From Haloplanus natans DSM 17983 (GTDB lineage: Archaea; Halobacteriota; Halobacteria; Halobacteriales; Haloferacaceae), in assembly GCF_000427685.1 (NCBI RefSeq), contig NZ_KE386573.1:1596938-1660937 (forward strand): a DNA stretch of 64,000 nt. The letters run 5' to 3'. The position numbers were made by a program, and so were the translations under genes. This document shows, one piece after another, positions 31,879 to 39,382 of this stretch (position 1 is its first letter; every line of letters starts with the position of its first letter). The notes beneath the pieces are model-generated. The model saw only the letters and a program-made list of their open reading frames with translations. It had not been told where the DNA came from and did not search any database.

Positions 31879-34800
31879 ATGGTCTCCGAATTTCTCGAAT
31901 CCAGACAGGGCCGTCCGTGGACATACGATCGGACGGACGCGGACTTTGAGTTCTATCAGGGGGAGGGATCGAGTGCGCTGGAGATAGTCGTCGTCGACCA
32001 CGGGGAACGGCCGACGAAGGAGTTCCTCCAGAAGACGTACTCCGACCGCCGCGGCGGACGGGTGAATCCGATTCTCATCGTTGCACTTGCTGAGAGCCAA
32101 GCTCACCTTTGCGGTCCAAGCGGTGAAGATCCCCCCGTCTTCCCTAATGTTGATCGAGGACAGGCTGAGCGCGTATGTGACGCCGCCCTGAGCAAGCCCA
32201 GCCGACACGCAGCCCAGCAGTTCCTCAGCGAAACGCTTCCTCAGCTCGACGAGGAACTCACTGGCCTCCGGAACCAGGGACTTCTCTCGACTCACGAGCT
32301 CCGGGAGGGTGTCCCAGACCGACCCGATTGGGCGGATGCCGTGGAAAAGGCTCAAGGAGCGTTCGCCGACGACCCCCGTGACCTCATGCGGGGGTTGGAC
32401 TACGAGATTGACCGCCTCACCGACCAGAGTTACGTCCTGAAGGACACCAGCGATGGCCACGAACGGGCGGTCGCCGTCTTCCTGCAGGAGGACGAATCGT
32501 TCGATCACGCCCAAGATCGATTCGTCGGCCAGTCACCGGTGGCCTACGCGCTCAACGAAGCCGACAAGCGAAACTTGGAGTACGTCATCGGCAACAGCGG
32601 CGATACACTCCGACTGTACACCACGAATCCCGACGCTGGCTTCGGTTCGCGGGGTCGAACTGACACCTACGTCGAAGTCAACACAAACCTCCTCTCCGAC
32701 GAAAAGGCGGGGTACCTCTGGCTACTGTTCTCGGCTCAGGCGCTCCGCGAGGACGGCACGCTCCACGACATCATGGAGGATTCGAAGGAGTACGCCGCCT
32801 CGCTCGGTGGCCGACTCCGCGAACGCATCTACGACGACGTCGTCCCCGATCTCGCGGAGGCCATCGCCCGTGCCCGCGACCTCGACGACCCGACGAAAGA
32901 CGAACTCGACGAAACGTACCGGATGACGCTGGTACTGCTGTACCGTCTCCTGTTCATCGCCTACGCAGAGGACGAGAAGTTCCTCCCACGCCGGCGGAAC
33001 GAGCGGTACGACGAGGACTCGCTCAAACGCAAGGCACGGAACCTGCATCAGTTCGTGCAGGACGACGGCGAGTTCGACGACTCCTTCTACGACCACTGGG
33101 ACGACGTCATGCACCTCACGCGGGCCGTCCACCACGGTCACGAAGAACTCGGGCTTCCCGCCTACGACGGGACGCTGCTCTCCGAAGACCCCGACATCTC
33201 TGAAGCGGGGGCGAACCTCGCAGACATCCGTCTGAACAACGCCGAGTTCGGGCCGGTGCTGGTGAACCTCCTCATCGACGAGACGGAGGAAGGCTACCAG
33301 GGCCCCGTCGACTTCCGTAACATCGGCGTCCGTGACTTTGGCGTCATCTACGAGGGGCTCCTCGAATCCGAGCTCTCGGTGGCGGACCAGCCCCTGACGA
33401 CGGACGACGAAGGGCACTACCAGCCCGTCGAAACCGGCGGTCAGCAGACGCTCGGTGATGATGATGAGGATGTCGTCGTTGAGGCGGGGGAGGTCTATCT
33501 CCACGGCCAGTCCGGAGAGCGGAAGGCTACGGGGACCTACTACACCAAATCGAGATTCGTCGAACACCTCTTGGATCATTCGCTGGAGCCTGCGCTGGAC
33601 GACCATATCGACCGCATTAACCAGCTCCGTGAGGAGGAGGGCGAGAACGCCGCCGCGGACGCGTTCTTCGACATCCGCGTTTCTGACATCGCCATGGGGT
33701 CGGGACACTTCCTCGTTGGTGCGGTCGATCGCATCGAGTCACGCCTCTACACGTATCTCACGGAAAATCCACTCCCACCCGTCGAAGAAGAACTGGACAA
33801 CCTGGAGGACGCCGCGCTGGACGCGTTCGACGACGAGGAGTACGCCCCACCCGTCGAGCGTGGTCAGCTTTTGCGACGTCAGGTTGCTCGACGGTGTGTC
33901 TACGGTGTCGACCTAAATCCCTTGGCGACGGAACTTGCACGGCTATCTATTTGGGTGCACACGTTCGTTCCGGGGCTTCCGCTCACATTCCTTGACTACA
34001 ACCTCGTGTCTGGTGATTCGTTAGCTGGGATCGGGACTCTGGACGAGGTAACAGATCTCCTCGACGCCGAACAGTCGTCGTTGGGGATGTTCATGGGTGG
34101 TCAGAGTGTAATGAACGAGATTCGCGGCGATATTGCTCAACTTGGAGACTTTGCAGACGCCAGTGCCGAACAGGTCGCGGAGGCCCGTGAGACGCGGGCG
34201 GAAATCGAATCGAAGCTTGAGGAGGTTCGTGCCCGATTCGACGTTCTTGCGGCATCGCGTATCAACGATAACATCGACACAGAACCGGTTTCGGACACGA
34301 GTATCGACATCACCGAGAAAGAGTGCTACAAGCAGGCACAGGATACGTTGGAATCGACTGATCCGCTCCATTTCCCCGCGGCCTTCCCGGAAGTGTTCGA
34401 TGGAAATGAATCGGGTTTCAACGTTATTATTGGAAATCCTCCATGGGAGGAAGCTACATTAGAGGAAGATGAATTTTGGATGCGTTATGAACCAGGTCTA
34501 CAAGCCAAATCACAGTCAGAGCAGGAGAAAATCAAGACGAGGCTTCGTAACGAGAGACCAGACCTCGTGAAAAAATATGAGGAGGAATTAGCGGAACAAG
34601 ACAAACGGCGGGCTCTCCTTCGAAATGGCCCATTCCCTGGAATGGGGACCGGTGACCCGGACACGTATAAAGCATTTTCTTGGAGATTCTGGGCCCTAAC
34701 AAAGACGGGAGGTCACTCGGGTGTTGTTCTACCAAGGAGTGTTTTCAGTGCGGCTGGATCGGAGGAGATCCGGAGGAAACTACTTGACGAAGGCATCGTG

Positions 34801-39000: not shown

Positions 39001-39382
39001 CCCACTGAACGTCCAGCCCGACATCCGACGGCTGTTCCGCGAAGTGGGTCAACACCTCCGTGATCACTGGCCTGCGGACATGACTCAAGACGAACTCCAA
39101 GAGACCGTCGAAGCGGTCGAGGCTCCATGGGGCCGGCGTTACGAGCGCGAGCTCCGCGAGATCTACGAGGACGAATCGCTCGGACCAATCGAAAAGTCTC
39201 GTGCGCTTGTCGACAAGGTCGAAGACTTGGGTCTCCAGCCGTTCGAAGCTCCCGACCCACTTCCGCCGATCGAAGAAAACGAGGTGAAACTGGTTTGTTG
39301 GATGATCGTTGCCCCCGAGGAAGACGAGAGTGAGCAGGACGACCGGCCAGGACTGATGTCTCAGGTGACTTTCGACACGTAG
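36014..39382 (+). CDS. PLD-nuclease/SNF2-family helicase fusion (DrmD-like helicase part)
   Basis: 1122 residues. The N-terminal 190 residues are a phospholipase-D-like domain with one HKD motif (H145 and K147 in FVHGKAYLF, then [11 protein letters not shown]). The helicase core follows: [15 protein letters not shown] (K277), [11 protein letters not shown] (D354, E355), [10 protein letters not shown], the C-terminal lobe [19 protein letters not shown], then [41 protein letters not shown] (motifs V and VI). This is the SNF2/RapA layout. PLD nucleases are metal-independent and normally dimeric. Coupled to the methylase gene, it is the likely restriction subunit. In DISARM, DrmD is an SNF2 helicase next to DrmMI, but drmA, drmB and drmC are not found here. 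Confidence 0.9.
   Translation: [1122 protein letters not shown]

Follow-up and report, generated by a model that had tools for sequence, protein, structure and literature searches.

A predicted two-gene restriction-modification system pairing an adenine methylase with a PLD-Snf2 helicase in Haloplanus natans

Closest described systems and the H. natans pair

Restriction by a phospholipase D (PLD) nuclease and a superfamily 2 (SF2) motor is established for SauUSI (PMC7913695) and for CglI/NgoAVII (PMC5737866, PMC4267653). In these enzymes an SF2 ATPase drives the PLD nuclease, and a specificity domain accompanies them. SauUSI is one protein and is modification dependent; in CglI/NgoAVII the nuclease and the ATPase lie on separate subunits, recognition is by a B3 domain, and the methylase is a third gene. 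Here we analyzed 64,000 nucleotides of the Haloplanus natans DSM 17983 genome (NZ_KE386573.1, positions 1,596,938 to 1,660,937, forward strand; hereafter the window), which hold a two-gene pair of a DNA methylase and a PLD-Snf2 helicase fusion. In contrast to SauUSI and CglI/NgoAVII, this pair fuses nuclease and motor, and its methylase carries the predicted specificity. Judged from its sequence, the pair is probably a two-component ATP-dependent restriction-modification system that moves between genomes as a cassette.

That PLD restriction enzymes can work independently of metal is also established, for instance for BfiI. In type ISP and type IIG enzymes the methylase has a C-terminal specificity region, and type ISP enzymes have an ATP-driven motor as well. 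The H. natans pair likewise has methylase and predicted specificity on one chain, but its nuclease is of the PLD type and sits on a separate polypeptide together with the motor. In the open literature searched, we found no description of this exact two-gene pair, free of DUF499 and YprA.

The methylase and the PLD-Snf2 helicase

The two genes have the following features (window positions; pair clade refers to the paired proteins of the loci described in the next section):

31879-36021, + strand: DNA methylase gene with an ATG start, 1380 aa, Eco57I/type-IIG-like, predicted N6-adenine; predicted modification and specificity subunit
33685-33711, + strand: S-adenosylmethionine-binding motif I, DIAMGSGHF, methylase residues 603-611 (alignment of the pair clade)
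34435-34446, + strand: catalytic NPPW motif, methylase residues 853-856 (alignment of the pair clade)
34456-35598, + strand: fast-diverging putative target-recognition region, methylase residues about 860-1240
36014-39382, + strand: PLD/HKD nuclease-Swi2/Snf2 helicase fusion, 1122 aa; predicted restriction subunit
36131-36607, + strand: single PLD domain, about helicase residues 40-198 (PLDc_2, 9.5e-12)
36446-36454, + strand: HxK, helicase residues 145-147
36491-36502, + strand: GSSN, helicase residues 160-163
36740-37393, + strand: SNF2 N-terminal lobe, with GLGKT at residues 274-278 and DEAH at 354-357
38057-38473, + strand: Helicase_C lobe, with QRNGRIDR at residues 792-799 (38387-38410)

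An earlier note on this DNA had described an NPPW adenine methylase overlapping a PLD-SNF2 fusion by 8 bp, and the open reading frames and Pfam domains confirmed both coordinates and domains. The overlap is ATGACTGA (36014-36021). The mechanical open reading frame of the methylase begins upstream of the ATG, with TTG at 31822. In Pfam the methylase matched Eco57I (E=1.7e-16) and N6_Mtase, and the helicase matched SNF2-rel_dom (1.1e-12) and Helicase_C (1.6e-15) in addition to PLDc_2. We found no variation in AMGSGHF or NPPW across the aligned pair-clade methylases, and the mark is probably N6-methyladenine.

We found that the PLD residues H145, K147, GSSN160-163, E174, and N176 were unchanged throughout the pair clade. 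The helicase motifs were mostly invariant, the exception being a member from a viral contig (L120) that has Ser and Gln at two positions. The earlier note's single-HKD nuclease thus held in that there is one PLD domain with invariant H and K. It did not hold for the third residue of the motif: a strict HxK(x)4D would require an Asp that is not conserved here, and the H. natans protein has Ser152 at that position, with Asp153 next to it. SauUSI, a PLD-helicase of solved structure, has HxK(x)4E (PMC7913695). Because SauUSI has Glu at the position of the HKD Asp, Ser152 is no argument for a dead nuclease.

We also weighed whether the methylase could cut by itself, as a type IIG enzyme with a divergent N-terminal nuclease, which would make the PLD-helicase a separate, accessory or anti-modification effector. 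The methylase matches the PADLOC profile REase_MTase_IIG (PDLC03620; 866 bits, full length), and in a low-confidence model of the N terminus the region near residues 166-248 follows an alpha-beta-beta-beta-alpha-beta-beta order that could be a nuclease-like fold. This alternative is unlikely in our judgment. No nuclease family in Pfam matched the methylase N terminus, residues 1-380 of the alignment contain no invariant Lys, and we found no canonical nuclease motif in the methylase. The overlap of the genes, their near-obligate pairing, and the tight co-divergence of the methylase with the helicase likewise speak against it. With no nuclease family match and no invariant Lys in the methylase N terminus, the PLD protein is the most likely source of cleavage, and the methylase is predicted to have no nuclease of its own.

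AlphaFold2 gave unusable models for methylase residues 1-894 (5 sequences, mean predicted local distance difference test [pLDDT] of 58) and for the helicase (7 sequences, mean pLDDT of 52), so that we drew no fold conclusion for either protein. Foldseek with the methylase 1-894 model returned nothing at an E value of ≤0.001. Compared with the sequences of solved structures, the methylase gave methylase-core matches only, and the helicase gave generic Snf2/RapA only. The methylase had no match among phage records.

Pairing, co-divergence, and exchange of the predicted specificity region

We found both genes together in 16 loci spread over archaea and bacteria: haloarchaea, actinobacterial plasmids, and viral-collection contigs. 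These are the H. natans locus, a viral-collection contig (83-87% identical), six more haloarchaeal genomes, Halorubrum lacusprofundi pHLAC01, Halalkalicoccus, two further viral-collection contigs, and four actinobacterial plasmids (Mycobacterium gallinarum, Euzebya, Rhodococcus erythropolis, and Paenarthrobacter aurescens). The nearest named carriers are Halolamina, Halorubrum, and Halovenus. In most pairs the genes overlap or are at most about 60 bp apart; the spacing is ~0.9 kb in one viral-collection contig (L120/L199). Three further loci are interrupted by contig ends (G063, G144, and L029). We found no third conserved gene across the nine close loci that were clustered, and in the loci compared the other carriers, plasmids included, share no gene besides these two.

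Of 118 related genomes, 7 hold close copies of the methylase and the identical 7 hold close copies of the helicase, so the pairing is not due to chance. In a survey of the phylum (393 genomes), a close helicase was present in 7, 5 of which have the full methylase alongside. The other two are G144, where the contig ends, and G383, where the methylase has been deleted except for its last ~115 residues. In G383 (C1:2565327-2569009, L118) the PLD-Snf2 gene is intact, as an orphan restriction subunit. On pHLAC01 we observed a second, truncated methylase (residues 1-1019; NC_012030.1 318350-321418, L222) adjoining an IS4 transposase, with no second helicase.

Over the 16 loci, pairwise distances for methylase residues 1-860 correlated with those of the helicase at r = 0.97-0.99. 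For residues 860-1240 the correlation was r = 0.49, and among haloarchaea the divergence of this region is about double. Up to residue 860 the Halalkalicoccus methylase shares 52-78% identity with those of other haloarchaea, and thereafter 14-36%. Compared with M. gallinarum, it is 38-50% identical before residue 860 and 42-58% identical for residues 860-1380. This switch at ~860 is the expected signature of an exchanged target-recognition region, and the swapped block runs from there through the C terminus. The divergence and the exchange suggest that specificity lies in the C-terminal region of the methylase, which was exchanged in one piece between a haloarchaeal copy and a mycobacterial one.

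We propose that the exchangeable C-terminal region would let the methylase recognize a specific sequence, and that the methylase would protect host sites by adenine methylation. At an unmodified site it is predicted to form a complex with the PLD-Snf2 partner and to recruit or activate it. The Snf2 motor would then move along DNA using ATP, and the PLD domain, two copies of which would dimerize to build a single composite active site, would cut the DNA, presumably including that of viruses. In function the pair would resemble a type I or type ISP enzyme that is split over two genes, with PLD replacing the PD-(D/E)XK nuclease.

Several points weigh against this proposal. The type IIG restriction enzyme-methylase class that PADLOC assigns to the methylase implies a fused nuclease, and the poor models leave room for a divergent one in its N terminus. 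The mirror-tree correlation owes part of its strength to shared vertical descent. The orphan helicase of G383 fits only on the assumption that a helicase lacking its methylase has no activity.

DISARM, BREX-related loci, and the wider PLD-Snf2 family

The earlier note had called the pair DISARM-like, either a minimal relative or an independent system. In class 1 DISARM (PMC9142583), as here, an N6-methylase is followed by a Snf2-family helicase, but the PLD domain is on DrmC there and is fused to the Snf2 protein in the pair. The two genes stand in the order of DrmMI and DrmD, the methylase matched the DrmMI profile at 234 bits, and the helicase matched DrmD profiles at 139-165 bits, as might be expected of a minimal or decayed class 1 DISARM whose drmA, drmB, and drmC were lost or lie elsewhere in the genome. 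However, the DrmD equivalog score was 165 bits against a cutoff of 610. In whole-genome profile searches DrmB had zero matches, and the DrmA profile found only the pair helicase and one SNF2 helicase on contig C1; neither DrmA nor DrmB is present at the pair. DUF1998/MZB had one genomic match (C7:2443020), ~0.8 Mb from the pair. We recognized no separate, DrmC-like PLD gene at the locus; a genome-wide DrmC search was not made and would be unspecific because of DrmC's PLD domain.

In our trees the pair helicases (19/19) and the pair methylases (16/16) each formed one clade with 100% support, apart from the sampled haloarchaeal DrmD and DrmMI proteins. The trees are quick searches with haloarchaeal DISARM sampling only and some long branches, so the deeper branching order is unsure. 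The sampled haloarchaeal DrmD proteins have no PLD domain, and at a haloarchaeal DISARM locus (L103) DrmA (498 bits) and DrmB (181 bits) adjoin a methylase of the DrmMI type and a PLD-free Snf2 helicase. On the genome-wide DrmA and DrmB searches and the trees we rejected a minimal DISARM, which we regard as very improbable.

Our best reading is that the pair is independent of DISARM and that its novelty lies in being a compact two-gene form of a known PLD-motor type of restriction. The absence of the DISARM core genes drmA and drmB was borne out, the label DISARM-like was not supported, and of the note's two options the independent system is the supported one. Its view of the pair as ATP-driven restriction with an unusual nuclease also needs adjusting: restriction is still the best reading, but the nuclease is less unusual than supposed, given SauUSI, CglI/NgoAVII, and the HKD-Snf2 proteins of other systems described below. 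Three other haloarchaeal loci (L100, L104, and L105) hold a DrmMI-type methylase gene that overlaps, by 8 to 14 bp, the gene of a BrxHII/DrmD-like helicase with no PLD domain. No DrmA-sized gene was seen in their 20-kb stretches, whose flanks were not profile-scanned. A DrmMI-DrmD pair lacking drmABC describes these loci better than it does the H. natans pair.

Type-2 BREX-Related (BR) systems (BREX, bacteriophage exclusion) combine an HKD-Swi2/Snf2 fusion and an N6-methylase with a DUF499 ATPase and DUF3780 (Rakesh & Krishnan 2026, PMC12839542). They and Hma-like loci share with the pair an N-terminal HKD fused to Swi2/Snf2, the N6-methylase, and a proposed restriction-modification-like logic. 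An HKD domain fused to an SF2 helicase is also found in PbeABCD (PMC12839542, PMC10853773). ARMADA, whose type I is found in archaea too, has a PglX-like methylase adjoining a BrxHII-like Snf2 helicase, but it requires a YprA-family helicase (PMC12458937). At the pair locus we recognized no helicase besides that of the pair among the scanned element genes, although YprA profiles were not run. DUF3780 had no match genome-wide, but control genomes gave no match either.

Since Type-2 BR has the same two kinds of protein (PMC12839542), and since a DUF499 locus and PglZ/BrxC loci are present in this genome, the pair could be a fragment of, or supply subunits for, a BREX-related, Hma, ARMADA, or PbeABCD system elsewhere. 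We see very little chance of this. The sole DUF499 gene (C1:59239) belongs to a separate locus, where it lies beside a different PLD-type helicase that falls outside the pair clade in the tree and an HmaB-like methylase. PglZ was found only at C7:1433065 and C7:729345, apart from one subthreshold match, with neither PglZ nor BrxC at the pair locus, and a PglX and a BrxL belong to the BREX locus at C7:1433065 itself. The other carriers compared, plasmids included, share only the two genes. We rejected displaced BREX, Hma, or Type-2 BR parts after examining the PglZ and DUF499 loci of the genome, of which the one at C7:729345 was read in part; those on C1 (DUF499) and at C7:1433065 (BREX) each have a methylase of their own.

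The C1 locus (C1:48411-60700; L026, L215) holds a PLD/PbeA-like Snf2 protein, an HmaB-like (DUF1156) methylase, a DUF499/HmaC ATPase, a DUF7680 protein, and an MCM-OB/HSDR_N-like protein, and we conclude that it is a second, different system in the genome, of the Type-2 BR/Hma sort. The C7:1433065 locus (C7:1422000-1441999, L213) holds BrxC, PglX, PglZ, and BrxL. The C7:729345 locus (719000-738999, L214), which was only partly read, has two BrxC-like genes and PglZ.

More distantly related PLD-Snf2 proteins, at 25-37% identity, occur in methanogens, other haloarchaea, cyanobacteria, Deinococcus, Thermococcus, Rhodococcus ruber, and Enterococcus. Their genes also adjoin DNA methylases or have them nearby, but these methylases belong to other families: TaqI-like or Eco57I, MmeI-like (one), and type III-like. 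This suggests that a PLD-Snf2 subunit has been combined with different methylases. The best profile for the pair helicase is the PADLOC 'C3a139' HKD+Snf2 family (PDLC01075, 195 bits), which has the same domain order and for which we found no paper in the open literature searched. The pair differs from it in forming a clade that is distant and has its own support. With this profile, a protein that a methanogen encodes next to a type III restriction-modification system scores 777 bits, and some type III-associated members have lost the H and K. The PLD-Snf2 homologues at L077-L081, L085, and L098 have lost the PLD H and K and kept the helicase motifs; several are beside methanogen type III restriction-modification genes, and one is in Enterococcus. 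Tentatively, and with somewhat more doubt than confidence, we suggest a distinct, widespread ATP-dependent restriction-modification architecture. It would join a stand-alone PLD-Snf2 restriction subunit to nuclease-less methylases that carry specificity; the helicase superfamily would have changed methylase partners repeatedly (Eco57I, TaqI-like, MmeI-like, and type III-like), and archaea and bacteria would have exchanged specificity regions within the pair clade.

The integrative element that carries the H. natans pair has the following ends:

12817-12901, + strand: tRNA-Leu, the integration site (ARAGORN); attL is its 3' part, 12850-12901
12958-14124, + strand: tyrosine integrase of the element (Phage_integrase, E=2.3e-18)
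42034-42085, + strand: attR, a 52-bp repeat of the tRNA-Leu 3' part, at the right end of the element

The two 52-bp direct repeats differ by 1 mismatch. The tRNA-Leu, the adjacent integrase, and the repeated tRNA 3' end place the pair inside an integrative element of ~29 kb (12850-42085). The G+C content is about 0.45-0.62 within the element and mostly 0.62-0.72 outside. Other defense-like genes of the element encode a TIR protein (17319-18131), NucS_C-domain proteins (19885-21003 and 29676-30764), the PADLOC phage-defense candidates PDC-S11 and PDC-M11A/B, and a CBS-domain protein related to the DS11 anti-phage family. Just beyond attR (42483-46476) are an AAA+ McrB-like gene (43822-46476) and a 448-aa partner. 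A homologue of this partner sits upstream of the pair in another locus (L019), and L087 and the more distant L095 have large AAA/DUF3578 or McrC-like genes at their flanks. Loci of this kind may often have a type IV-like system as a neighbor.

Annotation pipelines may misfile both genes, the methylase as type IIG and the helicase as DISARM-like. If the pair is the restriction-modification system that we propose, two genes would suffice for ATP-driven, sequence-specific PLD restriction without DISARM, BREX, or DUF499 machinery, and the pair would be a small system in which to study how methylation state controls a PLD-helicase. The exchange of specificity regions between archaeal and bacterial copies would have produced natural hybrids, and exchangeable regions of this sort could supply new methylation specificities.

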